Shown piece after piece: positions 21,912 to 47,729 of a DNA stretch of 64,000 nt (the stretch's first letter is position 1; the number at the start of each line of letters is the position of its first letter). The notes below the pieces were generated by a model that did no database searches, was not told the DNA's origin, and worked only from the letters and a program-made list of their open reading frames with translations. Source of the DNA: a virus; IMG/VR virus record IMGVR_UViG_3300004369_000005, positions 28,121-92,120 of that record. One strand, written 5' to 3'. The position numbers and the translations under genes are program-made.

Positions 21912-21941
21912 AATTAATTTTTAATTGACTTACTTATTTTA

Positions 21942-24385: not shown

Positions 24386-24438
24386 ATTATAGGGGCAGGG
24401 GGTTGCCCTTGTGGGGCAATGGTGGACGGTTCAGTAAC
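24386..24438 (-). promoter_or_regulatory. early-type promoter with upstream element (for the NGW gene)
   Basis: TATAAT at 24386-24391 followed by the leader GACTTCAGTTCAAACAAAC. The upstream element (GTTACTGAACCGTCCAC, a divergent copy) starts 47 bases before the -10 box. Confidence 0.55.
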
Positions 24439-24613
24439 CGTAACGCTGGCGGCGCATCTCGGTTTGGTAGCGGCGCTCATCGATGTCGTCAGCGGTGAAG
24501 TAATCATCGAAGTCGCCGTCGCCCATGTCGTAGGCATAGTTGGCGGGTTGCTGCCCTGCCTTGCCAGTGAGGGAGGCGAAGGAGAAGCGGTCGAAGTTGG
24601 TTTCGTTTGTCAT
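24431..24613 (-). CDS. 60-residue acidic hypothetical protein
   Basis: MTNETNFDRFSFASLTGKAG, then an Asp/Tyr-rich centre (YDMGDGDFDDYFTADDIDE) and an Arg-rich end (RRYQTEMRRQRYGY). The start at 24613 follows a TATACT box by seven bases; the longer frame reads through the promoter. Function unknown. Confidence 0.6.
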   Translation of the reverse strand: MTNETNFDRFSFASLTGKAGQQPANYAYDMGDGDFDDYFTADDIDERRYQTEMRRQRYGY

Positions 24614-24619
24614 GTGCTT

Positions 24620-24673
24620 AGTATAAGGGGTCAGGGGCGCAGTCTGGGGGTGATAGTGTGCCAGTTCCTCAAT
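24620..24673 (-). promoter_or_regulatory. early-type promoter with upstream element
   Basis: TATACT at 24620-24625. The upstream element ATTGAGGAACTGGCACA occupies 24657-24673 and begins exactly 48 bases before the -10 box. It overlaps the stop codon of the upstream gene. Confidence 0.6.
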
Positions 24674-24884
24674 CGAACAACAGGGCGGCGATTGCCTCAA
24701 TCCCTGCCTCGTCTGCCTTGACGGTGACCCATGCCATAGGGTTGCCCTTAGCGGGGCACTTCCAGATCACCACATCCTCATCGTAGGTTGCTGCCAGTTG
24801 GTAGGCATGGGTCATGTCAGTCGCCCACATGCAACCGTGAGGGTCGAACGTACCGAACGATTTGGGTTGAACTGCGATTGCCAT
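24669..24884 (-). CDS. 71-residue hypothetical protein
   Basis: MAIAVQPKSFGTFDPHGCMW followed by a compact alpha/beta sequence (AYQLAATYDEDVVIWKCPAKG, MAWVTVKADEAGIEAIAALLF). No family is recognised. The ATG lies about 24 bases after a TATAAT -10 box. GC-rich codon use like its neighbours. Confidence 0.65.
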   Translation of the reverse strand: MAIAVQPKSFGTFDPHGCMWATDMTHAYQLAATYDEDVVIWKCPAKGNPMAWVTVKADEAGIEAIAALLFD

Positions 24885-24907
24885 GTGTGCTTTGCTTTGT
24901 TCCCCTT

Positions 24908-24960
24908 ATTATAAGGGCGAGGATGCCGCGGCCAAGGGCAGCGAGTGCCAGATCTCCAAC
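24908..24960 (-). promoter_or_regulatory. early-type promoter with upstream element
   Basis: TATAAT at 24908-24913 lies within a CCTTAT/ATAAGG palindrome. The upstream element GTTGGAGATCTGGCACT starts 47 bases before it (24944-24960). A second GGCACAC copy is at 25003-25010 without an obvious -10. Confidence 0.55.
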
Positions 24961-25056
24961 TGTCTGCTGTGTCTTAACAACAGGCAGGGATGGCATACAA
25001 TAGTGTGCCAATTGCAGCGGTAGTATGGGTGAACTAGTTTGAGCCGCGAGTTTGTG

Positions 25057-25263
25057 TTACTTAGCGTCTGGAATTAGGGAGATCAAAGTATCCTCATCAT
25101 AGAGATCTACGATCTCTTCAGTTACTTCATCCCATGTCAATTTGTCGTACTCTCGTTCTAACAAATCAACGCACATATGCACGAGGGAATCTGTATCCAT
25201 GCCATCTACAATATGCCAGACATAGTTCTCAACGAGTTGGCGACGATCCTGTTCGGTAGGCAT
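25057..25263 (-). CDS. small acidic protein of a common cyanophage type
   Basis: 68 residues from MPTEQDRRQLVENYVWHIVD. The pattern LVENYV-x-HIVDGMD followed by acidic helices and an 'L..LIPDAK' end is one I associate with recurring small cyanophage proteins of unknown function. ATG at 25263 preferred over an in-frame TTG six bases upstream. Confidence 0.7.
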   Translation of the reverse strand: MPTEQDRRQLVENYVWHIVDGMDTDSLVHMCVDLLEREYDKLTWDEVTEEIVDLYDEDTLISLIPDAK

Positions 25264-25299
25264 AATCAAATGGTGAAGAATGTGTGGACTAAGTTATAC

Positions 25300-25653
25300 T
25301 CAGACCAGCAGGTCATTGATAGCAAGGGCACCAAGTCTCATGCCAGAGCGAAACTCAGTGACAAAGAATTCAGTGCCATTGTAGAGGCGAATGAACCACT
25401 CAAAGTTCTTCTGAAACACACCCTCACCAGCGATTCCATGCTCGGTCATGATAGCATTCAGGCGAGACTTGGTGGTGTTAGATTGCCAACCACCATCAAA
25501 CAATTTGATGCCGTTGTCATCAACTTCGGCAATCAGATTGCCATGCAGGTAGACATAAGAAATGCCGTCAACATTCAGCACCTCAGTGTTATCGAGTTTC
25601 CAATCAGTGCCGTTGGTGATAGCGGCATTCATGAGTCGTTCGATCTTACGCAT
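25300..25653 (-). CDS. conserved cyanophage hypothetical protein (GGWQSNTTKSRLN motif)
   Basis: 117 residues. The motif LFDGGWQSNTTKSRLNAI is distinctive and recurs in small early-type cyanophage proteins that I remember; the preceding segment (VLNVDGISYVYLHGNLIAEV) is a beta meander. Function unknown. Start chosen at MRKIERLMN (25653), downstream of a TATAAT box and a leader of about 36 bases. Confidence 0.75.
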   Translation of the reverse strand: MRKIERLMNAAITNGTDWKLDNTEVLNVDGISYVYLHGNLIAEVDDNGIKLFDGGWQSNTTKSRLNAIMTEHGIAGEGVFQKNFEWFIRLYNGTEFFVTEFRSGMRLGALAINDLLV

Positions 25654-25689
25654 GAGAGAAAAGTGAAGTGGTTTGTTTGAACTGAAGTC

Positions 25690-25743
25690 ATTATAGACAC
25701 AGGGTCGGCAGGAATGCGACCGATGCTGTGCCACTTAATCAAC
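25690..25743 (-). promoter_or_regulatory. early-type promoter with upstream element
   Basis: TGTGTCTATAATG with TATAAT at 25690-25695, an extended-type -10. The upstream element GTTGATTAAGTGGCACA starts exactly 48 bases before it (25727-25743) and overlaps the stop of the upstream gene. Confidence 0.65.
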
Positions 25744-25870
25744 TGTCCTCTCGCCAGGTCAGAGGATCTTCCTGTTCGATATCCTCTTGCATGTCGAAAG
25801 GCATCATCTCACGATCATCAATGTCGAGATCGAAGATCTCACCAGGCATGTCTTGAATTTCATCCCACAT
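25739..25870 (-). CDS. 43-residue acidic protein
   Basis: MWDEIQDMPGEIFDLDIDDR, then EMMPFDMQEDIEQEDPLTWR and a short acidic end. Highly Asp/Glu-rich, with no hydrophobic core; possibly a DNA-mimic-like or binding peptide, but that is speculation. It lies between two genes of the same strand, and the frame is clean. Confidence 0.5.
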   Translation of the reverse strand: MWDEIQDMPGEIFDLDIDDREMMPFDMQEDIEQEDPLTWREDS

Positions 25871-25901
25871 TGTTAGTTAAGCGAAGAACAGTTAGTGTTA
25901 A

Positions 25902-26093
25902 TCAGAGACCGTTGAGGTAATCAGCGAGTGCCTCATCATACTCTGCTTTGGTGTTAAAAACACGACCGTGAATCATGCGAGGATAGGTAGCATCAACACC
26001 AGCATGTGCTACCATCTGGCAGTCTGCCTCATCGTATCCCATCTCAATGAGAGTGGCGACGTAGGGGTTGTTCGTTTGGGTTTCGTTTGTCAT
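25902..26093 (-). CDS. 63-residue hypothetical protein
   Basis: MTNETQTNNPYVATLIEMGY, a UBA-like 'L.eMGyde.d' helix opening, then VDATYPRMIHGRVFNTKAEY and an acidic C-terminal helix. The first residues MTNET match those of the 60-residue gene at 24613, along with identical leader sequence. Start placed at 26093, seven bases after TATAAT. Confidence 0.65.
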   Translation of the reverse strand: MTNETQTNNPYVATLIEMGYDEADCQMVAHAGVDATYPRMIHGRVFNTKAEYDEALADYLNGL

Positions 26094-26099
26094 GTAGAC

Positions 26100-26153
26100 A
26101 TTATAGACACAGGGTCGAGCGGTTTGGGGGTCACAGTGTGCCACTTCTCCAAC
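26100..26153 (-). promoter_or_regulatory. early-type promoter with upstream element
   Basis: TGTGTCTATAATG with TATAAT at 26100-26105. The element GTTGGAGAAGTGGCACA starts exactly 48 bases upstream (26137-26153), in non-coding sequence just after the neighbouring stop codon. Confidence 0.65.
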
Positions 26154-26156
26154 TGG

Positions 26157-26420
26157 TTAGTCTTGAGTGGTGTAATCTATCTCAAATGCACCCTCACATT
26201 CAGGCACTTCATAATCATCTAAAATCACACGATAATCAATCGATTTGATACACCAACCTGTGGCACATGTGATCTCTTCTACGAGATCATCACCATCATC
26301 TGCCTCCCAAACTGTACCAAATACACCTTCACGGAGTTCTTCTTTATATTCATATGTGATGGGTTCATCATAAACATCATCACTAAAATCAAAGGCGATG
26401 TCAGTAACTTGGAATTGCAT
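26157..26420 (-). CDS. 87-residue acidic hypothetical protein
   Basis: MQFQVTDIAFDFSDDVYDEP..., then VWEADDGDDLVEEITCATGW and CIKSIDYRVILDDYEVP. Regular beta-strand spacing with Asp/Glu loops; no enzymatic motif. Proteins of this look recur among small cyanophage genes. Function unknown. Confidence 0.65.
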   Translation of the reverse strand: MQFQVTDIAFDFSDDVYDEPITYEYKEELREGVFGTVWEADDGDDLVEEITCATGWCIKSIDYRVILDDYEVPECEGAFEIDYTTQD

Positions 26421-26433
26421 GATTGTGATTGAA

Positions 26434-26643
26434 TTAGTTTACTTCAGCGAGCAACAGTTTGTGACAACGATCTGCCTCTACGAGTTCTTCATCATCAAGT
26501 TCATCCCATTCAACATACTCATAGGCACCACGGTTAGACTCAACGCTGCCATCAGATAGCAAGGGGTGATACATAAGAACTCGCTGGTGATTACCATCCA
26601 AAGTGTATACTAACTGGTTTGCTTTAGAGTGAATGAAAACCAT
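26434..26643 (-). CDS. 69-residue hypothetical protein
   Basis: MVFIHSKANQLVYTLDGNHQ..., an N-terminal beta hairpin and an acidic helix (EWDELDDEELVEADRCHKLL). I prefer the ATG at 26643 (GGGA eight bases before it) to the one at 26661, which overlaps a possible TATACA -10. A further GGCACAC copy of the early element stands upstream at 26701-26707. Confidence 0.6.
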   Translation of the reverse strand: MVFIHSKANQLVYTLDGNHQRVLMYHPLLSDGSVESNRGAYEYVEWDELDDEELVEADRCHKLLLAEVN

Positions 26644-26709
26644 GAAAAATCCCGTCAACATGTATACAATACACGATAACGGGACCTTTGCAATATTCAG
26701 TGTGCCAGT

Positions 26710-26868
26710 TTAGAAAGTGTCATAGTATTCATCCACTTCTCTCTTGAATTTGGTAACTTTCTTCTTAGTCTGTCTGCGAATATTCTTCACTTCGTAACCA
26801 AAATCTTCAAAATCTTCATCGAATTGTTGATACTTTTGGTTGTCGGACTGATTGTAACGCTTACCCAT
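26710..26868 (-). CDS. 52-residue basic hypothetical protein
   Basis: MGKRYNQSDNQKYQQFDEDF, then a Lys/Arg-rich helix (KNIRRQTKKKVTKFKREVDE). Probable single long helix. A GTATTA-G-TAATAC palindrome lies just upstream of the start (near 26881-26895), where a promoter could be. Function unknown. Confidence 0.5.
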   Translation of the reverse strand: MGKRYNQSDNQKYQQFDEDFEDFGYEVKNIRRQTKKKVTKFKREVDEYYDTF

Positions 26869-26902
26869 TGTAATTGTAAAGTATTAGTAATACAAAGCAA
26901 TA

Positions 26903-27148
26903 TTATTTAGATTCAATCAAGATATTATTCTTGATTGAAGTATGAAGAAACTTACCCAGACTACCTCCAGTCTTCAATTCAATGCTAATGAGTTCTTTAC
27001 ACAAATCTTCTTGGAATTGCTCTACATTTTCACAGTTAAACGTATATTCTTTGTCTTTATTGCTATTATACACGATTTTAACAGTGTTATCAACAATTTC
27101 GATGCTATCTACAGCTGTAGAGATCAAATTGTCGTACTTTTTAGACAT
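26903..27148 (-). CDS. 81-residue hypothetical protein, possibly KTSC-like
   Basis: MSKKYDNLISTAVDSIEIVD..., then VKIVYNSNKDKEYTFNCENV and GGSLGKFLHTSIKNNIL. The order of beta strands, aromatic 'YTF.C' and a 'G.S.GKF.....I' helix resembles small KTSC-domain proteins, but the KTSC signature is missing. It is preceded by a 150-base AT-rich leader. Confidence 0.65.
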   Translation of the reverse strand: MSKKYDNLISTAVDSIEIVDNTVKIVYNSNKDKEYTFNCENVEQFQEDLCKELISIELKTGGSLGKFLHTSIKNNILIESK

Positions 27149-27518
27149 TTTAAGTGGTTTGTTAATGTTTAAAGGTTAAAAACTCAAAAAATTAAGAAAT
27201 CTTAAAAATTAAGATTCTCAATAAACTCAAAATATTAAAAAACTCAATATTTTGACTTTTTGAGTTTTTGAGAAAAGCGGCAGGAGCACCCCTTTGCCTC
27301 ATGACAGTATTATAGGGTATCTGGGAGTGCTTTGGAGGTGTTGTGGACGGTTTCAGAGGTGTCACAGAGGCACTTGACGTTCGTTAGGTTGCGTGCTAAG
27401 CCAACATCGACTCCGCACCTTACCCCTATTTTATTAAGCATTTATTATTATTGATTCTCAACTAGACTATCTTATTGAGAACCATTGGTATGACTAGCGC
27501 GGAAGCACCTTGAAAACC
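27149..27518. other. AT-rich non-coding region with inverted and direct repeats and one promoter
   Basis: No gene is visible over 370 bases. It contains a perfect 10-bp inverted repeat (AAAAACTCAA / TTGAGTTTTT, 27238-27269), an 8-bp one (AATCTTAA / TTAAGATT, 27198-27216), several TTTTGAGTTTTT-like direct repeats on the minus strand (27175-27269), and TTCTCAA/TTGAGAA arms near 27455-27482. A TATAAT box (27309-27314, minus) would start a transcript with a leader of about 150 bases for the 27148 gene. It could be an attenuator-type leader or a replication origin. Confidence 0.5.
27238..27269 (-). repeat. perfect 10-bp inverted repeat in the leader
   Basis: Arms at 27238-27247 and 27260-27269 with a 12-base spacer. 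On the minus strand the hairpin ends in a run of T residues and lies between the promoter at 27309 and the gene starting at 27148, which fits an attenuator or weak terminator. Confidence 0.5.
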
Positions 27519-27680
27519 TTATTGATTCTCATTAGCACGGTGTCTTGTCACTGCTAGTATATTTTGTCCTGGGTTGAGATCTTTCACAACTTGTGCTGCA
27601 TCTTCATAGTCTATTGCATCTACTACAGTATGGTATCTTACCATATGATATTCTTCATCCCATGTCTGTACTGTATACAT
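27519..27680 (-). CDS. 53-residue hypothetical protein
   Basis: MYTVQTWDEEYHMVRYHTVV, then a helix (EDAAQVVKDLNPG) and a strand (NILAVTRHR). I chose 27680 because GGAGAGG precedes it at good spacing; ATGs at 27692 and 27701 would overlap the upstream gene further. Last gene of a run of overlapping ORFs. Function unknown. Confidence 0.55.
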   Translation of the reverse strand: MYTVQTWDEEYHMVRYHTVVDAIDYEDAAQVVKDLNPGQNILAVTRHRANENQ

Positions 27681-27852
27681 TATCCTCTCCATCAGATGCA
27701 TTCAATTTGTCTGTCTCTTTCTGAATGAAATCAGTTAACAAGTCAATGAAGTCTTGTTCGGTCCAATCATTGAATACAGACTCATAAGGATCATTCTCAT
27801 CCCATGAGATTGTGAATGTGTTATCATCTTCCTGTTCTACATTGATTGTCAT
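27655..27852 (-). CDS. 65-residue acidic hypothetical protein
   Basis: MTINVEQEDDNTFTISWDEN, then a Trp/Asp-rich stretch (VFNDWTEQDFIDLLTDFIQK). A strand-strand-helix layout with 'SWDENDPYESVFNDWTE'; similar sequences recur in cyanophages as I recall. Joined to the upstream gene by an ATGA overlap. Confidence 0.65.
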   Translation of the reverse strand: MTINVEQEDDNTFTISWDENDPYESVFNDWTEQDFIDLLTDFIQKETDKLNASDGEDNVYSTDMG

Positions 27853-28028
27853 TGTGGTTCACATACGATGTACTGATAATAGTTGCCGTAAGTATCTTGT
27901 GCTTGACGACAGAAATACATTGGGTTCTTTGGTTGTAGTGATACAATCTCATTAAGAGTGATTAGTGCAATAGCAAATTGTATGAATGGTAGGACCTTTA
28001 CTATTGTCTCACGATAGTTGTTCTTCAT
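27849..28028 (-). CDS. 59-residue small membrane-type protein
   Basis: MKNNYRETIVKVLPFIQFAI then ALITLNEIVSLQPKNP: a basic N-terminus and one hydrophobic segment (about residues 12-27), followed by a Cys- and Tyr-containing tail (FCRQAQDTYGNYYQYIV). Start and stop both overlap neighbours as ATGA. Probably a single-pass inner-membrane peptide. Confidence 0.55.
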   Translation of the reverse strand: MKNNYRETIVKVLPFIQFAIALITLNEIVSLQPKNPMYFCRQAQDTYGNYYQYIVCEPQ

Positions 28029-28249
28029 TCAAATACTGGTATTACTGGTGGATTCCATTCATCTCTTACTGCTTTCATAATATGTTTGGGAGTACCATAG
28101 TAACCCATATGCATCCATACACAATCAATGTATTGTAGATCTTCTCTATCTACTGTTGGATTGAATGAATCACAATATTTGACAATATCATAGGGAACTT
28201 TAACTTGTTTCCAGGTGATAGGTTCTTCAACATAGTATGGGACAGTCAT
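28025..28249 (-). CDS. 74-residue hypothetical protein
   Basis: MTVPYYVEEPITWKQVKVPY, then a Cys/Trp-rich core (YIDCVWMHMGYYGTPKHIMK). No recognised family. Overlaps both neighbours by four bases. Confidence 0.6.
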   Translation of the reverse strand: MTVPYYVEEPITWKQVKVPYDIVKYCDSFNPTVDREDLQYIDCVWMHMGYYGTPKHIMKAVRDEWNPPVIPVFE

Positions 28250-28326
28250 TTCTTTACTGGTGCTGTTAGTTCAAGAGTGAGTGTTAGTAGTAGTATGAAT
28301 GAGAAGATAAAGAGTGTACTAATCAT
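28246..28326 (-). CDS. 26-residue hydrophobic micropeptide
   Basis: MISTLFIFSFILLLTLTLEL followed by TAPVKK. One transmembrane span with a basic C-terminus. The ATG overlaps the end of the upstream oxygenase gene and the TGA overlaps the next ATG, so the reading frame fits the overlapping gene chain although it is very short. Confidence 0.4.
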   Translation of the reverse strand: MISTLFIFSFILLLTLTLELTAPVKK

Positions 28327-28879
28327 GATTGTAATTTTCCTCTTTAAATTGACACCATCCTGTTGCAATAAACTTAGTTGATGTTGTTGGTGTTACACCT
28401 TTATGTGGGTGAGTCCAGTATGCAGGCCATATTGCCATCATACCTTGTCTTGCACGTAGTTTCATGTTTTGGTATGGAAACTCTGTCCCTTCATTACAAG
28501 TATTAAGATAGATCATCCATGCAATATGTCTACGTGGATGATAGGATGAGTATTCACAATGAGGGGAGAAATAACCTTCACCTTCATTATAACGTTGAAT
28601 ATTATAATAGGGGCAGATTTCCCATGGTTCAATCTGTTCTAGGAAGTGATACTTATTAACATAGTTTTGTATCCCTTTCACAACAGCAGGATAGATGAAT
28701 GAGTTGTACTGAATGAATTCAGTTTGGAAGAAGTTAGCATGAAGATCAGTAGAGAGTTTATACTCTGGGTTGACTTCATCATGATTAATTGCACCAGGAA
28801 CTGTACGCTTATCCTTTTGGAATAGCGCACAGCAGGTAGCAGCATCATAGTCTTCCATTACCTTGTAGAGTTCAATCAT
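28319..28879 (-). CDS. 2-oxoglutarate/Fe(II)-dependent oxygenase, prolyl-hydroxylase-like
   Basis: 186 residues. The core reads YNIQRYNEGEGYFSPHCEYS, then RRHIAWMIYLNTCNEGTEFP, then IWPAYWTHPHKGVTPTTS and KFIATGW. This follows the prolyl-4-hydroxylase-type order 'Y..G..f..H.D/E...R..t.l.YLN..feGGeT.F......p..G....f......H.g.pv..G.K.i...W'. Likely Fe ligands are His107, Glu109 (in place of Asp) and His157; Lys169 would bind 2-oxoglutarate. Substrate unknown. It lies among tiny early-type genes, unlike the other two oxygenases in the window. Confidence 0.8.
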   Translation of the reverse strand: MIELYKVMEDYDAATCCALFQKDKRTVPGAINHDEVNPEYKLSTDLHANFFQTEFIQYNSFIYPAVVKGIQNYVNKYHFLEQIEPWEICPYYNIQRYNEGEGYFSPHCEYSSYHPRRHIAWMIYLNTCNEGTEFPYQNMKLRARQGMMAIWPAYWTHPHKGVTPTTSTKFIATGWCQFKEENYNHD

Positions 28880-29252
28880 CAGTCAAATGATCGACACATG
28901 CTAATTTCTCAAGAACTTCTTGATTATGTTTTTCGAGAGCACATGGCATTGCTTCTTTGAGTGCTTCTGTTACATTCTCTTTAAATGAACGATACGGAAT
29001 GAAGATATCATCATCCTCAGTCTTATAGTCTGGATGATTCTCTTTAAACTGACGCTCTACCTCATACACAAGATTAGACACAATGTCATTAATGACTTCC
29101 ATTGTGTGTGGTTGAAGTTGATCCCAGAGGTATCCAGGGAGCAGATCATCCTTGACACGATCTAGCATTGCTTTTTTACATTGCCATTGATCGTCAAAGA
29201 TGTTGAGAAACTCTTGCCAATCGTCTTGAGATTTAAAGTTGGGAATACTCAT
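28872..29252 (-). CDS. 126-residue helical hypothetical protein
   Basis: MSIPNFKSQDDWQEFLNIFD..., largely alpha-helical with Cys residues, a central helix (TMEVINDIVSNLVYEVERQF) and an acidic end. No recognised motif. Overlaps the oxygenase by eight bases. Confidence 0.6.
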   Translation of the reverse strand: MSIPNFKSQDDWQEFLNIFDDQWQCKKAMLDRVKDDLLPGYLWDQLQPHTMEVINDIVSNLVYEVERQFKENHPDYKTEDDDIFIPYRSFKENVTEALKEAMPCALEKHNQEVLEKLACVDHLTDD

Positions 29253-29407
29253 TTGTTTTTAGGGCAATTGTGTTGTAAATTGTGTTGAATCATTGTGAGT
29301 GCTGAATTAATATCAAGGGCATAATCTTCATAGATCCAATCTCCTACCGTGATAGTGTAATACACCAAACATTTAGGATTTGATTGGCGAATTGTAATAT
29401 CAATCAT
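29249..29407 (-). CDS. 52-residue hypothetical protein
   Basis: MIDITIRQSNPKCLVYYTIT then VGDWIYEDYALDINSALTMI: two strands and a helix. ATGA overlaps at both ends place it in the same overlapping chain. Function unknown. Confidence 0.5.
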   Translation of the reverse strand: MIDITIRQSNPKCLVYYTITVGDWIYEDYALDINSALTMIQHNLQHNCPKNK

Positions 29408-29637
29408 TTGTTCTTCTCACAATAAAGGAAATACTTGTATTCTGCGACTTGATGTGGTGCGTATCTAATTATATCACATTCTTTGTACTTGTCAACCACC
29501 TCAAATGATGATTCATTGATTGGTGTGTCATTCATTGATAAGACTGCAATGATTAACATAACAGTACCTAGAACACCAAGAGTAAGTGCTACACCATTAC
29601 GAAACTCTTTGAAAGCATACTTGTCATCTTCAGTCAT
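29404..29637 (-). CDS. 77-residue single-pass membrane protein
   Basis: A charged N-terminus (MTEDDKYAFKEFRNG) precedes one hydrophobic segment (VALTLGVLGTVMLIIAVLSM, residues 16-35) and a hydrophilic Cys-containing tail. Likely inserted in the host inner membrane, N-terminus in the cytoplasm. No recognised family. Confidence 0.65.
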   Translation of the reverse strand: MTEDDKYAFKEFRNGVALTLGVLGTVMLIIAVLSMNDTPINESSFEVVDKYKECDIIRYAPHQVAEYKYFLYCEKNK

Positions 29638-29812
29638 AAGGTTGCTGGGGGTCTTTCTTCCAGGTATCAGTATAGCACAACCATGGTTCTAGTTTGGGTG
29701 ACATTTCAGCAGTCCAATGATAACCATTTACATCAATGGCATCTAGGTAATGAATACGAGTCTTTGGGTCAATGACTCGTGAGATTGTCACAAATTTGGT
29801 TCTTTCCATCAT
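29630..29812 (-). CDS. 60-residue hypothetical protein
   Basis: MMERTKFVTISRVIDPKTRI, then a beta segment (YLDAIDVNGYHWTAEMSPKL) and a Trp-rich end. Overlaps both neighbours. Function unknown. Confidence 0.55.
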   Translation of the reverse strand: MMERTKFVTISRVIDPKTRIHYLDAIDVNGYHWTAEMSPKLEPWLCYTDTWKKDPQQPYD

Positions 29813-29976
29813 TCAAACCCCTCTACTGGATATTGTTGTGGTTTATCTTTCCATTCAGTGATAGCCATGACGAGATCAATGAGTGAAGCATCTTTACCTT
29901 TGTAGGATGCGGCACAGAATACATCATCCCACCAATCTGCTACAATATCATACAATTCTTGTTGTTCTTCAGTCAT
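29809..29976 (-). CDS. 55-residue acidic hypothetical protein
   Basis: MTEEQQELYDIVADWWDDVF, then a helix (DASLIDLVMAITEWKDKP). I chose 29976 because it overlaps the upstream stop as ATGA and has GAGGA six bases before it; an ATG at 29997 is also open. Confidence 0.55.
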   Translation of the reverse strand: MTEEQQELYDIVADWWDDVFCAASYKGKDASLIDLVMAITEWKDKPQQYPVEGFE

Positions 29977-30176
29977 GATCGTCCTCGTAAATTCCATGGG
30001 TCAACACCTTCTGGGATTGGGGAATTCCATAATCCTTCATCAGCATACATCTCATACCAACCATAGTTTAGTTCTCCAAAAAATGCAAGTCGGTCAATGT
30101 CATCATTATACTCACTGAATCTGAAGTAAAACACATTACGCCAGTGCCAATAGGCATCACTAAACCATTCAGTCAT
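29973..30176 (-). CDS. 67-residue aromatic-rich hypothetical protein
   Basis: MTEWFSDAYWHWRNVFYFRF..., unusually rich in Trp, Tyr and Phe, with a 'GLWNSPIPEGVDPWN' end. ATG at 30176 preferred; the longer frame would need TTG. Function unknown. Confidence 0.55.
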   Translation of the reverse strand: MTEWFSDAYWHWRNVFYFRFSEYNDDIDRLAFFGELNYGWYEMYADEGLWNSPIPEGVDPWNLRGRS

Positions 30177-30724: not shown

Positions 30725-31188
30725 GCTACTCCATTAGCACTATCAGCTAATGCTTCCATGTCAGAATGTCCCCATGGTGGCATATGATCGCCTTTGATCT
30801 TGGGTTCACTACCAAAGTTCTTCTCATAATGAGCGTTCATCTTAGCCCATTCTGCATCACGCTTCATAAACTCCTGGTATTTCTTCTCCAGGTCCTCATC
30901 CATGGTGAGTTCATACTCTTTACAGACCTTACGCTGATCTTCCTCACGCACACAGTCATTGAATACCAATGACATAGCACCAGAGCGAATAGATTGTGGG
31001 TCCATGCCTACACATAGCATGAACTTCTCAAATAACTTGAAATACTGCTTGCAGTTGAGGTCTGCTGCTGGTGCAGTGATAAGATAATGCTCTTCAGGGA
31101 TAAAATCATCATCAGTCCAGGATGATGTACCATACGTGGGAGTGAACGTAGCATCAAACTTAAATTGTACTTCTGCTTCGTAGGTCAT
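30721..31188 (-). CDS. 155-residue hypothetical protein of a cyanophage type
   Basis: MTYEAEVQFKFDATFTPTYG..., then FIPEEHYLITAPAADLNCKQ, YFKLFEKFMLCVGMDPQSIR and a Lys/Glu helix. The 'F.P.....L.....D.....F..FL...G......I' layout recurs in cyanophage proteins I remember without a function. No catalytic motif visible. Confidence 0.7.
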   Translation of the reverse strand: MTYEAEVQFKFDATFTPTYGTSSWTDDDFIPEEHYLITAPAADLNCKQYFKLFEKFMLCVGMDPQSIRSGAMSLVFNDCVREEDQRKVCKEYELTMDEDLEKKYQEFMKRDAEWAKMNAHYEKNFGSEPKIKGDHMPPWGHSDMEALADSANGVA

Positions 31189-31352
31189 TGGTCGTTCTCG
31201 TCAGGATTCTTAGGGTTTGCGAATGTACCGTAGTTGTAAGTATAGTAGAGAAAGTTGTTGATGCTACGCTCGATGCCTAGCGATTCTTTTACATCCAACC
31301 ATGACTGATATTCTAGTTGGAGATCTTCACCCAATTCAATTGTGACTTCCAT
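31185..31352 (-). CDS. 55-residue hypothetical protein
   Basis: MEVTIELGEDLQLEYQSWLD, then a Tyr-rich stretch (NNFLYYTYNYGTFANPKNPD). ATGA overlap with the next gene. Function unknown. Confidence 0.55.
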   Translation of the reverse strand: MEVTIELGEDLQLEYQSWLDVKESLGIERSINNFLYYTYNYGTFANPKNPDENDQ

Positions 31353-31355
31353 AGT

Positions 31356-31493
31356 TTATTTGCCAGTATACTGATAGCACTTGTAGTTTGGATGATAACG
31401 ATCAATATATTTCTGTGCGTGTTCGATACAGGTAAACCAACACTTTTTCTTCTCAGTAAGATCCTCAAGGAAAATGGGGAAAGTTGTCAGGTG
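31356..31493 (-). pseudogene. detached C-terminal reading frame (about 45 aa) after the AbrB-like gene
   Basis: The frame encoding KKKCWFTCIEHAQKYIDRYH and PNYKCYQYTGK looks like real protein (paired Cys, His, aromatic pattern). It has no ATG, GTG or TTG start of its own: upstream in this frame lies only a Ser/Thr/Lys-rich sequence that is the +1 shadow of the AbrB-like gene. It joins that gene if the ribosome shifts +1 near 31465-31475, or if a base has been lost there. It may be a C-terminal domain of the upstream gene or a separate gene that lost its start. Confidence 0.45.
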
Positions 31494-31848
31494 GGGAAAC
31501 TGTTCGATCTTTCTGCTGTTCGTTACCTTGATCTCTTGTTTGGAGGAACTTTTCCGCGTTGTTGATGTCTTGCTGGATTTCTTCTGCGGACTGGTCGATG
31601 ATATACTCTTTGATTGCGTCTTCTTTGACGCTGTACCAGTCGTGAGTTTGCTCGTGTTCTTCTTCAGTGCTGCTGCTGTCTTCGACTCTACGGATGATGA
31701 TCGTGTTGTTGTCTTGGATGTCCCACTCGATGATGTCATCTTCTTCCCAACCGAGTTCTTGCATGAGTTCTTCTGGGAATTCGACGAAGAGGTCTTCTGA
31801 GTCTTCATACTGTTGCACTTCAAGGGTAAACTTATTTGATGTATCCAT
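31465..31848 (-). CDS. AbrB/MazE-like protein (SpoVT-AbrB swapped-hairpin type)
   Basis: 127 residues from MDTSNKFTLEV. The N-terminal part holds the pattern 'L.V......dLFVEFPEELMQELGW then EEDDIIEWDIQDNNTIIIRR', the small beta swapped-hairpin DNA-binding arrangement of AbrB/MazE antitoxin-like proteins (typical 'i.iP..l...lgl..Gd.v.......g.i.i'). The C-terminal half is acidic and helical. Probably a DNA-binding regulator; no toxin partner is adjacent. The reading frame stops at CCT TGA, where a second plausible frame takes over. Start at ATG 31848 preferred over GTG. Confidence 0.65.
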   Translation of the reverse strand: MDTSNKFTLEVQQYEDSEDLFVEFPEELMQELGWEEDDIIEWDIQDNNTIIIRRVEDSSSTEEEHEQTHDWYSVKEDAIKEYIIDQSAEEIQQDINNAEKFLQTRDQGNEQQKDRTVSPPDNFPHFP

Positions 31849-32512
31849 TTTCACGTAGCCACTCTCCTGTCAATGGTGTTGGTTTGTAAGTAGTCCACAT
31901 TGTACCAGCAGCACATGCTTCTAGTGCTTTTTGTGTCATTCCCTCTGTTCTACCAGCCCAGGATGCCTCTGCCTCCCAAGGCACAGCAGATGCAGGATAT
32001 GTACGCTCTGCCAGTGTACGCCATAGAATAGGCACAGATTCTTCAGGCATAATGATAGCAATCATGCTATTGTCGATGCTACCTGCCATACAGTCTTGTG
32101 CTGCGTGCCATCCTTCATGACGCATTACTGCCATCAGTGTGCCAGGATGATCCATGTACTTCTTATTGAGATAGAAGTTGTTTGACACTGTGTGGTAGAC
32201 TCCACGATGTCCGACTGGGAAATAACGCTCATCAGCAAGATATACTTTCACACCAATGTCATTCAGTGTGGAGAGCATGTTGTTGAACTCTTGTGCTACT
32301 ATCGTAAACTCTTCCATGTTATCATAATTGGAAGAGATGTCTAGCATAGAATAGACTTCCTTAACATCTTTGGTACACTCACGGAGCAACATACACCCCA
32401 TTGCGTCCATGCTGTAGAATCCTTTGGTAATCTTGTCCTCATTAGCAAGGGCAACATGTGCTGTGCCTAGACTAACAGCAGTGAGGAGCGCAAGGAGTGT
32501 TTGTTTCATCAT
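31832..32512 (-). CDS. exported protein with HExxH zinc-protease-like motif
   Basis: 226 residues. A cleavable signal peptide is visible (MMKQTLLALLTAVSLGTAHV, then ALA-NED around residue 24). An HEGWH motif (132-136, in MRHEGWHAAQDC) fits the zincin HExxH signature; WEAEAS at about 179-184 could supply a third, glutamate ligand. Several Cys (40, 46, 141, 195) may form disulphides in the periplasm. It may act on cell-wall or envelope protein during lysis or infection, but that is inference; a similar hypothetical protein is familiar from cyanophages. ATG at 32512 or 32509. Confidence 0.7.
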   Translation of the reverse strand: MMKQTLLALLTAVSLGTAHVALANEDKITKGFYSMDAMGCMLLRECTKDVKEVYSMLDISSNYDNMEEFTIVAQEFNNMLSTLNDIGVKVYLADERYFPVGHRGVYHTVSNNFYLNKKYMDHPGTLMAVMRHEGWHAAQDCMAGSIDNSMIAIIMPEESVPILWRTLAERTYPASAVPWEAEASWAGRTEGMTQKALEACAAGTMWTTYKPTPLTGEWLRENGYIK

Positions 32513-32658
32513 GATTGGAGTGGTTCAGTCTTACGTTTTTCTTGGATAGCAGCAAATAGTTCTGCTTGACGTGCGTCGTCTTGATCTACAACTGCTTGCA
32601 TAAAGTCAGCTACTAGTTGACGCATCTCTTCAGAGATCGAAGGTTGTTCTGAGTTCAT
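32509..32658 (-). CDS. 49-residue hypothetical protein
   Basis: MNSEQPSISEEMRQLVADFM, then QAVVDQDDARQAELFAAIQE: one amphipathic helix. Stop overlaps the start of the exported protein. Function unknown. Confidence 0.5.
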   Translation of the reverse strand: MNSEQPSISEEMRQLVADFMQAVVDQDDARQAELFAAIQEKRKTEPLQS

Positions 32659-32845
32659 CGTAATCTGTGTAAAGGGTTTCTTCTGACTCGTGATTCTCAG
32701 GATCTAACCACTCAAACCACTCATCTGCAAAGGCAATAGCATCATCATTACGATCTTCTGCAATCAACTCACGGAAACGTTCTACTACCCAACCACAAAT
32801 ATCGTCACGTTGTTCGGAAATGCGAAGTGCATCAAGGTTATTCAT
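32630..32845 (-). CDS. 71-residue acidic helical protein
   Basis: MNNLDALRISEQRDDICGWV then VERFRELIAEDRNDDAIAFA and FEWLDPENH. Acidic and helical, no recognised family. Overlaps its neighbours. Confidence 0.55.
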   Translation of the reverse strand: MNNLDALRISEQRDDICGWVVERFRELIAEDRNDDAIAFADEWFEWLDPENHESEETLYTDYDELRTTFDL

Positions 32846-33090
32846 AGTTTGTTAGCGAAGAGAACGTTGTTGAGGTGGTCGTACTGGATGAATTCTACAT
32901 CATCAGGGAGCATAGAGACAGCAGCAGCGGCAAAATCGTTAGGAAACTTCTTGAATAAGCGCCAGAACTTTTGAATGCCGTCGTAGTCTAGATCTTCATG
33001 TGGAAGGACACGAATCTCCCATGAACCACGAGTGTATCGGTTAGGATACGGGTTAATGTACTCGCGGATGTGCTCTTGTAGCAAATTCAT
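32842..33090 (-). CDS. 82-residue hypothetical protein
   Basis: MNLLQEHIREYINPYPNRYT..., then SWEIRVLPHEDLDYDGIQKF and a hydrophobic helix (FPNDFAAAAVSMLPDDVEFI). No known motif. Confidence 0.6.
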   Translation of the reverse strand: MNLLQEHIREYINPYPNRYTRGSWEIRVLPHEDLDYDGIQKFWRLFKKFPNDFAAAAVSMLPDDVEFIQYDHLNNVLFANKL

Positions 33091-33314
33091 TTGACAAATA
33101 CCTCAGAGGAGTGTTCCTGGTGCAGTTGTGCTGCCTGCTTCAAATAATAGCACATATGCGCTACATATTCAACGTCTTCGTCACAAGGTTCGAAATCGTA
33201 AGCACAATTCCAATCGACAGTGCCGTCAGCATTAACTGGCGCACCGTAGAAATCATCACCATCGAGGGCAAAAGCATGATCGTCAGCAACAAGATAGAAC
33301 TGAGGAGCAGACAT
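33087..33314 (-). CDS. 75-residue hypothetical protein
   Basis: MSAPQFYLVADDHAFALDGD, then Cys-containing acidic sequence (WNCAYDFEPCDEDVEYVAHM). A strong sigma70-like promoter lies upstream, so this is the first gene of the chain running down to 27519. Confidence 0.65.
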   Translation of the reverse strand: MSAPQFYLVADDHAFALDGDDFYGAPVNADGTVDWNCAYDFEPCDEDVEYVAHMCYYLKQAAQLHQEHSSEVFVK

Positions 33315-33337
33315 TGGAGGAGAAGCGAAGGAACTAC

Positions 33338-33366
33338 AGTGTACTATGTATGTTAGAGAGTGTCAA
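33338..33366 (-). promoter_or_regulatory. sigma70-type promoter
   Basis: TTGACA (33361-33366) and TACACT (33338-33343) with an exact 17-base gap, 24 bases before the 33314 ATG. Unlike the other promoters here, it has a canonical -35 box and lacks the 48-base upstream element. Confidence 0.75.
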
Positions 33367-33370
33367 GGGG

Positions 33371-33751
33371 TCACTTCATGTAAAGATAACCGCCCGCCCA
33401 GTCTGCATTCTCAAGCAACCACTCGCGGTCCTTAATCAGGCAGAGGTTAAAGCGAACATGCTTAGCAGGTGCTTTAAATGATGCTGGTTTGTATACTTCA
33501 CCAGTCTTCTTGTCAACAAAAGCATGAACGGAGCGAGAACCGTTAGCATCCATGATGATCTTGTGATACTTGCGACCAGATTCAATGTAGAACTTGTAGT
33601 CGCTGCTGGTGTGGCGGGACTTGTAGTTATCCAGCAGAGCATCACACAGCATCAGAGTCCACTTGCGGATGTTAAGTTCGATGGTGTTGCGAGCATCAGC
33701 GGTGGCGCAGAACTCAGCGAAGGTTTCGGACTTGGTGATGGTGGCAGTCAT
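33371..33751 (-). CDS. 126-residue conserved cyanophage hypothetical protein
   Basis: MTATITKSETFAEFCATADA..., then YYIESGRKYHKIIM-like sequence with SRSVHAFVDKKTGEVYKPAS, a motif repeated in small cyanophage proteins as I recall. The 'HAFVDKKTGEVYKPASF' segment is the most recognisable. Start at 33751 follows a TATACT box; a longer frame to 33811 would read through the promoter. Function unknown. Confidence 0.75.
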   Translation of the reverse strand: MTATITKSETFAEFCATADARNTIELNIRKWTLMLCDALLDNYKSRHTSSDYKFYIESGRKYHKIIMDANGSRSVHAFVDKKTGEVYKPASFKAPAKHVRFNLCLIKDREWLLENADWAGGYLYMK

Positions 33752-33772
33752 GTCGTTGTCTGAACTGATGTC

Positions 33773-33825
33773 AGTATAGATGGTCTTGGTGGGGTTTGGG
33801 AGAGAGATCATGCCACTTCCGCAGC
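33773..33825 (-). promoter_or_regulatory. early-type promoter with upstream element
   Basis: TATACT at 33773-33778 followed by a leader close to that of the 24363 gene (GACATCAGTTCAGACAACGAC). The upstream element (GCTGCGGAAGTGGCATG) starts 47 bases before the -10 box (33809-33825), inside the end of the upstream gene. Confidence 0.55.
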
Positions 33826-34014
33826 TGGCACACGGGACACGGTGAGACGCTTGAAGTTATACTCGCGCCAGGCATCACATGCCTCGTTCACCATGCGATT
33901 GTGCTGACGATCCATGCCCTTTGCCGTCTTGCAACGCTTGACCTTACGGAAATACACGATGGGGATCTCGGTCTCGGGCATGTCGATCTCGATCTTGTAG
34001 TGAGAGTAGGTCAT
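33808..34014 (-). CDS. 68-residue basic hypothetical protein
   Basis: MTYSHYKIEIDMPETEIPIV, then RKVKRCKTAKGMDRQHNRMV and an Arg-rich end. The ATG follows a TATACT box by 26 bases. Function unknown. Confidence 0.6.
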   Translation of the reverse strand: MTYSHYKIEIDMPETEIPIVYFRKVKRCKTAKGMDRQHNRMVNEACDAWREYNFKRLTVSRVPAAEVA

Positions 34015-34039
34015 GGGTGGTTCCCTTGTCGATGTCCTT

Positions 34040-34091
34040 AGTATAGGGCTCAGGAGAGCAGTTCGAGCACCTCGTGGGACAGTTCCTCAAC
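34040..34091 (-). promoter_or_regulatory. early-type promoter with upstream element
   Basis: TATACT at 34040-34045; the element GTTGAGGAACTGTCCCA starts 46 bases upstream (34075-34091). Here the element lies within the end of a coding ORF, where it also encodes VEELS. Confidence 0.5.
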
Positions 34092-34178
34092 TGGCATATC
34101 GCGTTCGATCTCGATCACATCGTATTCTTCATCGAGTTGATCCAGGAGCCAGCGGTCGAGCATAACTTCATTCATCAT
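34050..34178 (-). CDS. 42-residue acidic protein
   Basis: MMNEVMLDRWLLDQLDEEYD, then an acidic helix (IERDMPVEELSHEVLELL). The C-terminal codons contain the early promoter element. Start at 34178 or 34175. Function unknown. Confidence 0.45.
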   Translation of the reverse strand: MMNEVMLDRWLLDQLDEEYDVIEIERDMPVEELSHEVLELLS

Positions 34179-34413
34179 TGTCTTGTTTGATAATTTTGTC
34201 GTAGTTGAGATTAGCATGGTATACGTCATTGAATCTGACGCATACTTCCTTGAGAGCGGGATCTTGTTTAGGCACAGGTTTGTGCCCGACAGAGCGTAAT
34301 TGTCGCCACGTCATGACAGTATCATGAGGACGTTGTGCTTTGTAAAATGGTTCTAGCGCAGCATACTCACGAACTGTGAGTGTATGACGTGGCGGTAAAG
34401 AACCTTGTGTCAT
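34168..34413 (-). CDS. 81-residue basic hypothetical protein
   Basis: MTQGSLPPRHTLTVREYAAL, then a Lys/Arg-rich centre (QRPHDTVMTWRQLRSVGHKP). No family recognised. ATGA overlap with the upstream gene. Confidence 0.55.
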   Translation of the reverse strand: MTQGSLPPRHTLTVREYAALEPFYKAQRPHDTVMTWRQLRSVGHKPVPKQDPALKEVCVRFNDVYHANLNYDKIIKQDNDE

Positions 34414-34547
34414 ACTTCTAAAAGCGAAAATTCAATGTGGTCGCAGCATGAATCATCATCATGCAAGTCAATCATGTCAGTGTCAGTGAGACAGGTGAGT
34501 TTACCGAAGAGAAAGTCGATGAATTCGTGATCTTCTTTAGAAAACAT
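34410..34547 (-). CDS. 45-residue acidic protein
   Basis: MFSKEDHEFIDFLFGKLTCL then an Asp/Glu-rich stretch (TDMIDLHDDDSCCDHIEFSL) with paired Cys. Overlaps the upstream gene by 11 bases. Confidence 0.45.
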   Translation of the reverse strand: MFSKEDHEFIDFLFGKLTCLTDTDMIDLHDDDSCCDHIEFSLLEV

Positions 34548-34704
34548 TGGTCCAGCGAGTGTGGTTTGCTTTAGTGATACGTCCTTCTGTCAACATGTTA
34601 TCACACACATTACAGAAGACTTGAAACTTCTCTTCTCTTGTGAGTGTGTCAACACCATCACAAGTTTTCATAACCTTGAGAATGTATGCTTTGGTAGTAA
34701 TCAT
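34537..34704 (-). CDS. 55-residue hypothetical protein
   Basis: MITTKAYILKVMKTCDGVDT, then REEKFQVFCNVCDNMLTEGR; two Cys in an FCNVC motif might bind metal. TGATG junction with the upstream gene. Function unknown. Confidence 0.5.
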   Translation of the reverse strand: MITTKAYILKVMKTCDGVDTLTREEKFQVFCNVCDNMLTEGRITKANHTRWTNVF

Positions 34705-34856
34705 CAGAAGTTCAGGAGATAGGTGTTGTCAGGATAGATACCGAACTCTTCACAACGGCACTCGTAAGCAATACGCTTAAGCATCTCAATATCCATCTCT
34801 TCAATGGACTTGAGAATAGTGCGGCGCATCTGAGCGGTGATGGTGTCGTCTTTCAT
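34704..34856 (-). CDS. 50-residue hypothetical protein
   Basis: MKDDTITAQMRRTILKSIEE, then a helix (DIEMLKRIAYECRCEEFG) with two Cys. First gene after the TATACT box at 34882. Function unknown. Confidence 0.5.
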   Translation of the reverse strand: MKDDTITAQMRRTILKSIEEMDIEMLKRIAYECRCEEFGIYPDNTYLLNF

Positions 34857-34881
34857 GGGTCGTTCCCTTGACTACCTTTGT

Positions 34882-34887
34882 AGTATA
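34882..34887 (-). promoter_or_regulatory. -10 box TATACT without the spaced upstream element
   Basis: TATACT on the minus strand, 26 bases before the 34856 ATG. A GTTGAGGGACAC sequence lies upstream but at 57 bases rather than 45-48, so this promoter looks like an exception. Confidence 0.45.
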
Positions 34888-34890
34888 GAG

Positions 34891-35067
34891 TCAATCCATC
34901 TCACAGGCGAGGTATCCTAGACACTTTACCAAGTGTCCCTCAACCTCAGTATCGGACAGACCATGGCGCAATGCTGTATCACGCACCATGGCAATGGGAG
35001 CACCCCACAGCAGGTCGATCAGGAACTTCAGTTCAGAGGCGGTCAGAGGGACTTCAGCGGTCTTCAT
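34891..35067 (-). CDS. 58-residue helical protein
   Basis: MKTAEVPLTASELKFLIDLL, then WGAPIAMVRDTALRHGLSDT and GYLACEMD. A compact helical sequence, function unknown. GC-rich codon use. Confidence 0.5.
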   Translation of the reverse strand: MKTAEVPLTASELKFLIDLLWGAPIAMVRDTALRHGLSDTEVEGHLVKCLGYLACEMD

Positions 35068-35111
35068 AGGTCACAGGGGTCAGAGGGGCATTACAGGCGC
35101 TTCTAGGTGCC

Positions 35112-35393
35112 TCAGACGAACGATAGGACACTAGGGCGCATGGGTTTTAGGATCTGCATGGCACTGTAGGGTGTGGTATCATGAATGTCAACCACATCTC
35201 CTATTTTCTTTGAGTTGATAGGTGCGTAGTATTTTTTTGTGCTGGGTTTGTAGAATCCCCAGATGGATTTAACTTGCTCGGAAGTGTAACTAAATTGATA
35301 GTGGTTAACAATCCAAATACGAACAATACCACGACTGGGAGTGTCATATTCGTAAGAATATCCTTTAGGCGGGACATGAGGGAACTCTAGCAT
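35112..35393 (-). CDS. 93-residue hypothetical protein
   Basis: MLEFPHVPPKGYSYEYDTPS..., then a beta segment (GIVRIWIVNHYQFSY) and a basic region (YKPSTKKYYAPINSKKIGDV). Similar proteins recur in cyanophages as I recall, unnamed. TGATG junction with the next gene upstream. Confidence 0.65.
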   Translation of the reverse strand: MLEFPHVPPKGYSYEYDTPSRGIVRIWIVNHYQFSYTSEQVKSIWGFYKPSTKKYYAPINSKKIGDVVDIHDTTPYSAMQILKPMRPSVLSFV

Positions 35394-35635
35394 CAGCAGT
35401 AAACAGGAGAGTAATCTTTGCCAGTGTATGCTTCAGTGTTGAAATCAGTAACCTCAGCACCGTTGGCAAGATAGTTGCGGATGTCGTAGAGAGCGTCAGA
35501 CTTGACACGAGTGGTGAAAGAAGTCATCTGCTGAGAGAGTTCTTCAGTGGGGTGCCAGATCACACGCTTGACGAAACGCTTGCCACCAGCGACGGGGAAG
35601 AAGTCAACCTGGGTGGCAGAGGTTTGGAGTTGCAT
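35393..35635 (-). CDS. 80-residue hypothetical protein
   Basis: MQLQTSATQVDFFPVAGGKR, then FVKRVIWHPTEELSQQMTSF and YLANGAEVTDF. No family recognised. The ATG follows a TATAAT box that abuts a palindrome. Confidence 0.65.
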   Translation of the reverse strand: MQLQTSATQVDFFPVAGGKRFVKRVIWHPTEELSQQMTSFTTRVKSDALYDIRNYLANGAEVTDFNTEAYTGKDYSPVYC

Positions 35636-35658
35636 GGGTGTCTCTCGATTACCTTGTA

Positions 35659-35713
35659 ATTATAGGGTGTGCTCCGCGCTTGCGGAGCGTGGCGCGGACA
35701 GTTTGCGAACTGT
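35659..35713 (-). promoter_or_regulatory. early promoter overlapped by two palindromes
   Basis: TATAAT at 35659-35664. Directly upstream, covering the usual -35 zone, is GCTCCGC-GCTT-GCGGAGC (35671-35688). Further up is ACAGTT-4-AACTGT (35698-35713), whose second arm lies in the GTT...AACTG early element 46 bases before the -10 box. It could be a repressor operator. Confidence 0.55.
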
Positions 35714-36363
35714 CACACCAGTTTGTCGATGAGGAACTCTGAAAGAGCGGTCCAATCAGGACAGGTAACATCATGGCAGTAAGTCATACCAGCAGCATTA
35801 CCACGTTTTTGCTGAAGAATACGGAAGTCCCACTTATATTTGTCTTTGCGTGACTTGCTAGTAGAATTATCACGGAGAGTTGGTTTAGTACCAAAAACAG
35901 GATGCTGAGATTCAAAGAAAAGATCTTTCTTCTGGTCGAAAATAGTGATCCACACTGTATTATACTGAAAATCAATGAAAACCAGTTTATCACACGGATC
36001 ACCCTTACTGATAAGATTCTCGTGTTGCCAACTCTCACTCTTACCATAACGTGACGCTTTCACTTCAATACGAATTTTCTTACCTTTATGCGTAAACCAC
36101 AAATCGTATGTACCATCGCCTGCGTTGGTGTTTTTATCACCGTCCCACTGAATATCAAAGTAAGTAAGAGCACCGATAAGGTTATACAAATACATCTCAC
36201 CCCACTTACCAGTGTCATCTGCACCGCCACGAGTAGCAAGAAACTCAAAAGGAGAACCTACCCAATAGGTACGAGAAAGAATCTCCTCCTCCATAGTCTG
36301 CAAGGTGCTACTCAAAGCAGAATTTGCCTTATCAATATTTAATTGAAATTGTGTGGCGGTCAT
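35713..36363 (-). CDS. PD-(D/E)XK-family nuclease
   Basis: 216 residues from MTATQFQLNI. The catalytic core of restriction-endonuclease-like proteins is clear: a helix with Glu in GKWGEMYLYNLIGA (Glu57), then GDGTYDLWFTHKGKKIRIEV-K, giving Asp87 and the E-x-K pair Glu100/Lys102. The downstream KLVFIDF strand fits the fold. It could degrade host DNA, process phage DNA or act in repair; the sequence does not decide between these. The start follows a promoter; a longer frame (to 36396) would include the -10 box. No methylase partner is visible. Confidence 0.8.
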   Translation of the reverse strand: MTATQFQLNIDKANSALSSTLQTMEEEILSRTYWVGSPFEFLATRGGADDTGKWGEMYLYNLIGALTYFDIQWDGDKNTNAGDGTYDLWFTHKGKKIRIEVKASRYGKSESWQHENLISKGDPCDKLVFIDFQYNTVWITIFDQKKDLFFESQHPVFGTKPTLRDNSTSKSRKDKYKWDFRILQQKRGNAAGMTYCHDVTCPDWTALSEFLIDKLV

Positions 36364-36384
36364 GGGTGAATTGCTTTGATACAG

Positions 36385-36438
36385 ATAGTATGGCATGAAA
36401 AAGGGGTGCCGTCAAGCACCCCGAACCAGTTCCTCAAC
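36385..36438 (-). promoter_or_regulatory. early promoter of the nuclease gene with upstream element
   Basis: TACTAT (36385-36390) has a GTTGAGGAACTGGTTCG element exactly 48 bases upstream (36422-36438). A TTGACG lies between them with a 19-base gap to TACTAT (17 to an overlapping CATACT), so this site combines a -35-like box and the element. Confidence 0.6.
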
Positions 36439-36485
36439 TGTCACCCCAGATCGGGTGGAGTTCTGTTTTAGCATGTTCTGTCATG

Positions 36486-47724: not shown

Positions 47725-47729
47725 TTGTA

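Follow-up and report, generated by a model that had tools for sequence, protein, structure and literature searches.

The window analysed here, a stretch of 64,000 nucleotides from a virus in IMG/VR (record IMGVR_UViG_3300004369_000005, positions 28,121 to 92,120), contains a small-gene cluster in which we found 11 clear copies and one weak copy of a 22-bp inverted repeat (dyad) with the consensus GTGNCASTT-N4-AASTGNCAC upstream of early-type promoters. Every copy lies on the minus strand, and no further occurrence of the spaced dyad was found in the 92-kb record outside these small-gene-cluster sites. The dyad at 36423..36444 (GTGACAGTTGAGGAACTGGTTC) precedes an ORF ending at 35713 and is separated by a gap of 30 bases from the -10 hexamer CATACT (36387-36392); its spacer holds a terminator-like hairpin (GGGGTGC/GCACCCC followed by T5). 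The same gap of 30 was measured for the dyads at 35695..35716 (GTGACAGTTCGCAAACTGTCCG; -10 TATAAT, 35659-35664), which precedes the ORF at 35635-35393, at 34076..34097 (ATGCCAGTTGAGGAACTGTCCC; TATACT, 34040-34045), and at 34918..34939 (GGGACACTTGGTAAAGTGTCTA; TATACT, 34882-34887). The last of these is a perfect dyad, kept in S-WAM2 and S-RSM4, at a promoter that an earlier note on this DNA had described as lacking the element. A copy additional to those listed earlier, at 26702..26723 (ATGACACTTTCTAAACTGGCAC), is also kept in S-WAM2 and S-RSM4 and stands 30 bases from a weaker -10-like hexamer, TATTGT (26666-26671).

Slightly different gaps were found at the remaining sites. The dyads at 33810..33831 (GTGCCAGCTGCGGAAGTGGCAT; -10 TATACT, 33773-33778) and 24945..24966 (CAGACAGTTGGAGATCTGGCAC; TATAAT, 24908-24913) have gaps of 31, while gaps of 32 were measured at 26138..26159 (TAACCAGTTGGAGAAGTGGCAC; TATAAT, 26100-26105), at 25728..25749 (AGGACAGTTGATTAAGTGGCAC; TATAAT, 25690-25695), and at 24658..24679 (TGTTCGATTGAGGAACTGGCAC; TATACT, 24620-24625), where the distal arm has decayed. 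A weaker dyad at 27344..27365 (GTGACACCTCTGAAACCGTCCA) lies 29 bases from TATAAT (27309-27314), and its S-RSM4 counterpart is GTGACACCTCTGAAACTGTCCA. The weak copy, at 24423..24444 (GTTACGGTTACTGAACCGTCCA), precedes a TATAAT ending at 24386; the promoter there had been called divergent, which its position on the minus strand with all other sites contradicts, and although its gap (31) is correct, the operator is poor, a better S-WAM2 copy (CAGTCAGTCGGGCAACTGGCAC) being found before the homologous gene.

All of the -10 boxes listed in the earlier note were present, with its coordinate mostly corresponding to the last base of the hexamer, and the distances of 45-48 bp given there are equal to the gaps of 29-32 between the full dyad and the -10. 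The pattern it quoted was clearly enriched (11 matches at ≤3 mismatches versus 1.86 expected, with none of 100 shuffles reaching 11). The one-sided form of the element, GTTGNNGAACTGGCACA, was real but incomplete, since it represents mainly the promoter-proximal half of the 22-bp dyad.

Measured from the last base of the dyad, the -10 hexamer, of the SigA-like TATAMT type, is reached after 29-32 bases with a peak at 30, which places the dyad centre at approximately -53 to -55; the start codon usually follows 27-34 nt past the first base of the -10. Information amounted to ~1-2 bits per operator position and only ~0.1-0.2 bit per -35 position. A TTGACA match of at least 5/6 occurred in 14% of sites versus 1.3% of shuffled spacers, and a recognisable -35 (≥4/6) was present at about one third of sites, so that dependence on an activator need not hold at all of them.

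The enrichment and fixed spacing extended to other cyanophages. Scanning IMG/VR with the dyad alone returned at least 120 stretches, compared with 13 for the reversed control. In the IMG/VR contigs among the matches listed, which were picked without regard to the -10, TATA[ATC]T began 29-31 bases past the dyad 48 times, as against ~30 matches over the remaining 87 offsets. The isolate genomes showed the same offset peak, with 46 sites at 30 and 21 at 31 (control, 0-1), and at spacings of 29-32 the dyad outnumbered a control dyad by 24 to 0 in S-PM2, 31 to 0 in P-SSM2, 27 to 1 in S-CRM01, and 14 to 0 in the window. It is on these two offset counts that the fixed-spacing claim is based, the wrong-spacing columns of the joint operator/-10 matrix being an unclean control because a strong operator alone clears the joint threshold. 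That matrix was trained partly on genomes that it scanned; the consensus counts are independent of it. Eight of the nine isolate genomes carried the dyad above control, the exception being S-SM2, a Synechococcus T4-like phage with almost no sites. Syn9 (10 sites, 44775-52997) and P-TIM40 (15 sites, 46480-55025) carry it mostly in the small-gene cluster; in addition, P-HM2 carries the element and S-TIM5 a related variant of it.

Taken together, the dyad at near-constant distance and the weak -35 argue for the activator binding at around -44 to -60 that the earlier note had raised. The recurrence of the dyad at hundreds of places in other cyanophages, without a corresponding regulon in their hosts, makes it very probable that a regulator of the first phage genes docks there. 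We consider it likely, from sequence evidence, that a dimeric DNA-binding protein, most probably an activator, binds the dyad and brings SigA-type RNA polymerase to early promoters whose -35 is weak. In the proposed mechanism, each promoter would consist of the 22-bp operator, a near-unconstrained spacer of 29-32 bp in which any -35 is weak, and a -10 of the SigA type. A homodimeric protein would sit on the dyad at approximately -53 to -55; given the near-constant distance, it would contact RNA polymerase, most simply through the alpha C-terminal domain or sigma, and this contact would open promoters lacking a good -35 and thereby switch on the early small-gene cluster. Both binding of a protein at the dyad and its acting by activation rather than repression are inferred, and the early timing of these promoters is presumed from their location in the small-ORF cluster and from the early-gene element reportedly described by Doron et al. 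(2016). The binder could be encoded by the phage, and then either be synthesised immediately or enter with the virion, or it could belong to the host and have other sites in the host's own genome.

That the activator is specifically a host transcription factor recruited right after injection is a sub-case of the dimeric-activator reading that we regard as quite possible, at somewhat below an even chance. Expression of the early genes precedes the build-up of phage proteins, and the distribution of the dyad tracks phages of Cyanobiaceae hosts, both marine and freshwater. Furthermore, no universal phage regulator was found: among the compared genomes, no protein showed the full pattern (present in every operator-rich genome and in S-TIM5, and not in S-SM2), the proteins common to all operator-rich phages belong to known replication, structural or unknown-function families, and the S-TIM5 proteins shared with T4-like cyanophages, in a phage bearing the variant element, include no evident regulator. 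Against a host factor, however, 300 Cyanobiaceae genomes yielded only 13 distinct dyad sites at ≤1 mismatch, below the reversed control, with no phage-like promoter array at the matches inspected; relaxed arms combined with the spaced -10 pattern matched in none of 151 genomes; and a whole Synechococcus genus gave 34 sites at ≤2 mismatches versus ~206 for the control, with no recurrent promoter site. A host regulon was rejected at 0, 1 and 2 mismatches and with the relaxed spaced pattern, an absence that informs on the origin of the binder. One match recurred in four Synechococcus genomes and had no promoter-like setting in the two inspected. Phage contamination was rejected as a source of the host matches, which had no phage proteins nearby save methylase homologues in one case.

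We hold more tentatively that a dimeric activator specific to the phages, either synthesised immediately or virion-delivered, binds a 22-bp operator absent from hosts, and that the unrelated T4-like and S-TIM5-like lineages share this architecture with related operators. Two candidate binders were rejected: P-TIM40 and P-HM2, both of which bear the element, lack the first, a 70-aa HTH-like family (phrog_1920/1308), and the second, an acidic MazE/AbrB-like family, was not detected in S-CRM01 and was only doubtful in P-HM2.

The dyad could instead be the operator of a phage repressor that shuts the early promoters once middle transcription begins, which we judge unlikely. A dyad is typical of dimeric DNA-binding proteins and is present on the entire early-type set, and early transcripts of P-HM2 drop later in dark infection (PMC5082946), but a centre near -54 falls outside the core promoter, and the narrow distance and weak -35 fit activation better. 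Still less probable are recently duplicated promoter cassettes with no shared regulator, comparable to the mobile promoter/stem-loop cassettes of T4-type phages. Some copies in the window do have the leader TGACTTCAGTTCAAACAAA or the stretch GACCCTGTGTCTATAATG in common; however, mean pairwise identity among window sites was 0.71 for operators and only 0.29, near chance, for spacers, and spacer information was low across 594 sites, so the spacers are unrelated and recent duplication is rejected. Since the repeat is inverted around a 4-base loop and many of its copies lie at gene ends, it might also be a hairpin in DNA or RNA, either a processing or terminator stem closing the upstream gene or a hairpin promoter; terminator-like hairpins are indeed present in 54 of the 594 spacers. 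This reading is very improbable, however, given that these hairpins are separate from the dyad, lying between it and the -10, that the spacing to the -10 is strict, and that stems would be mismatched at many sites. The variable positions also lack compensatory covariation: among 822 unique sites, drawn from the window, IMG/VR contigs and the nine isolate genomes, complementarity was observed in 365 versus 388 expected at pairs 4/19 and in 375 versus 419 at pairs 7/16, which indicates two half-sites of a dimer operator.

Returning to the dimeric-activator reading, the anatomy of the element (dyad, spacing and -10) is now clearer and can be set beside known systems. Doron et al. (2016, ISME J) reportedly described a 'novel regulatory element', said to be abundant and conserved, at early genes of the T4-like cyanophages Syn9 and P-TIM40, with which we presume the dyad to be identical: both belong to early-type small-gene promoters, and we found the dyad in both phages. 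Its symmetry, spacing and absence from hosts were measured here independently of that study. As in T4 middle promoters, an upstream element would offset a poor -35, but the MotA box sits at -30 and does not form a 22-bp dyad. The earlier view of the element as neither the MotA box nor the late box is upheld. The T4 genome contained no matches to the dyad arms, and motA and asiA are missing from cyanomyoviruses (PMC2984593). Early transcription in T4-like cyanophages has to proceed in the absence of Alt, ModA/B, MotA and AsiA, and a 2010 review called the way in which it does so unclear (PMC2984593). An operator of 22 bp at a fixed position makes this question directly testable, as the dyad can serve as bait for isolating its binder, and any genome or metagenome of cyanophages can be searched with its consensus to locate early-type promoters.

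The late promoters of P2/P4 resemble the cyanophage promoters in having a dyad, the Ogr/Delta site, centred at approximately -55 and a weak -35, and their activator is a phage-encoded zinc-finger protein touching the alpha subunit; the site itself, TGT-N12-ACA, differs in sequence from the cyanophage dyad. NtcA- and PhoB-dependent cyanobacterial promoters likewise have a SigA -10 preceded by an activator site that is palindromic or repeated, although neither the NtcA site (GTA-N8-TAC) nor the Pho box (CTTA-N7-CTTA; both quoted in PMC3037559) matches the dyad. T4-type late promoters (NATAAATA) are present in the same phages and, unlike the dyad promoters, have a gp55-type box at -10 and no upstream operator. 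At some IMG/VR loci, TATAAATA directly follows a dyad promoter.

When the minus-strand sequence around each early-type promoter named in the earlier note was read and the sites were extracted and aligned, the upstream element proved to be a dyad, which reached the 22-bp consensus GTGNCASTT-N4-AASTGNCAC once S-WAM2 was included. The earlier note had placed a pattern 45-48 bp from the -10 boxes, and that pattern was enriched in the window (11 matches with three or fewer mismatches versus 1.86 in shuffles). The simplest dyad, CASTT-N4-AASTG, occurred nine times in the 92-kb record versus twice for the reversed pattern used as control, and 7/9 copies lay in the small-gene cluster. Every dyad in the window mapped to the minus strand, at 24.4-36.4 kb, and scanning the remainder of the 92-kb record for the spaced dyad yielded none. 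The promoter at 34882, previously considered free of the element, carries a perfect copy (CACTT-ggta-AAGTG). The original observation was confirmed and sharpened.

The fixed distance was tested most cleanly on IMG/VR contigs chosen by the dyad only, ignoring the -10. An exact scan for the G-form of the 22-bp dyad returned at least 120 stretches versus 13 for the reversed pattern, and TATA[ATC]T occurred 29, 30 and 31 bases past the dyad 9, 31 and 8 times, respectively, with few matches elsewhere, although these counts are not all independent because some contigs are near-duplicates. The -10 peak fell again at 30-31 in isolate genomes, and the start codon mostly followed the -10 by 27-34 bases.

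By DNA similarity the relatives are S-RSM4, S-H9-1, S-WAM2, S-RIM32 and further Synechococcus myoviruses; the whole genomes examined were S-WAM2, S-RSM4, Syn9, P-TIM40, S-PM2, P-HM2, S-CRM01, S-SM2 and P-SSM2. Sites scoring at least 13/16 exceeded the reversed control in every isolate genome counted, with the smallest excess in S-SM2, and spaced sites numbered 8-31 per genome versus 0-2 for the control, except in S-SM2 (2 versus 1). They lay mostly within small-gene clusters; the main P-HM2 cluster directly precedes gp25/gp6. Searches for the arms found no match in T4, Ma-LMM01 or P-SSP7, and one each, equal to the control, in Syn5 and Pelagibacter phage HTVC008M. S-TIM5, a cyanophage that is not T4-like, carries a variant (approximately GNCASTY-N4-AASTGGCCC, gap 31) before several genes. 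S-SM2 (sequence handles L221-L230), a Synechococcus T4-like phage nearly without the element, is useful for gene-content contrast.

Doron et al. 2016 reportedly described a novel regulatory element governing early genes in Syn9 and P-TIM40, said to be conserved among T4-like cyanophages. Because the dyad is present in the small-gene clusters of both phages, it is very probably that element. A 2010 review called early and middle control in cyanomyoviruses unclear and listed them as lacking alt, modA, modB, motA and asiA (PMC2984593); in P-HM2, three classes (early, middle and late) are distinguished (PMC5082946).

Averaged over sites, the -35 is weak, yet TTGACA matched at 4/6 or better at about a third of sites versus 11% of shuffled spacers. 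Given that average weakness, the element is best seen as a site that would support a SigA-type polymerase from about -54. The activator reading proposed earlier is supported in part, and its mechanism is inferred. The arms would suit a dimeric protein that reads each half-site independently. A binder encoded by the host is a tentative proposition. With Synechococcus WH7803 and other hosts picked through a D1 scan, six host genomes had no dyad at one mismatch or fewer, 300 Cyanobiaceae genomes had 13 such sites, fewer than the control, and relaxed arms with a spaced -10 pattern matched in 0/151 genomes. At two mismatches one entire Synechococcus genus held 34 sites versus about 206 for the control. 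The deficit against the reversed pattern may stem from coding constraints, and no avoidance is claimed. A recurrent Synechococcus site had no promoter-like setting in the two copies inspected. A phage-encoded binder is about as tentative or slightly less likely, and no phage protein family compared across genomes had the distribution expected of one. A small-gene-cluster protein with a MazE/AbrB-like acidic N-terminal domain (window 31465-31854, minus strand) has homologues in Syn9, S-WAM2, S-RSM4, S-PM2, P-TIM40 and, more weakly, P-SSM2. The very basic phrog_516 protein (about 47 aa, function not annotated; window 21768-21920, minus strand) occurs in all T4-like cyanophages examined and also in S-TIM5 and HTVC008M. 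Recent copying was rejected as the cause of the pattern, since inter-site identity in the window was 71% in the operator and 29% in the spacer; selection therefore maintains it. A folded strand was unsupported, the two variable symmetric pairs being slightly less complementary than independent arms would be across 822 unique sites.

Terminator-like hairpins occupied the spacer at 54/594 sites (about 9%; shuffled 0.3%), including that of an upstream gene at window 36393-36422, between operator and -10; upstream genes can thus end inside the promoter. Six dyad loci in IMG/VR contigs (L012, L014, L025, L035, L102 and L111) look like composite promoters: the dyad is followed by a TTGACC -35, a -10 such as CATAAT and then, some 40 bases on from the dyad, an adjoining late-type box, TATAAATA, as though a single promoter might act at both early and late stages. 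The freshwater phage S-CRM01 (L212-L220) has many sites, with a left arm that is often GTGCCAGTC and a recurrent GTTATGCTAGCTAAGT in the -10 region. A gene frequently found downstream of the operator (S-CRM01 105712, minus strand, and 27 other sources) encodes a protein whose K-x-DG-type motif, TTKWDGAPAVICGID, is similar to motif I of ligases/nucleotidyltransferases.
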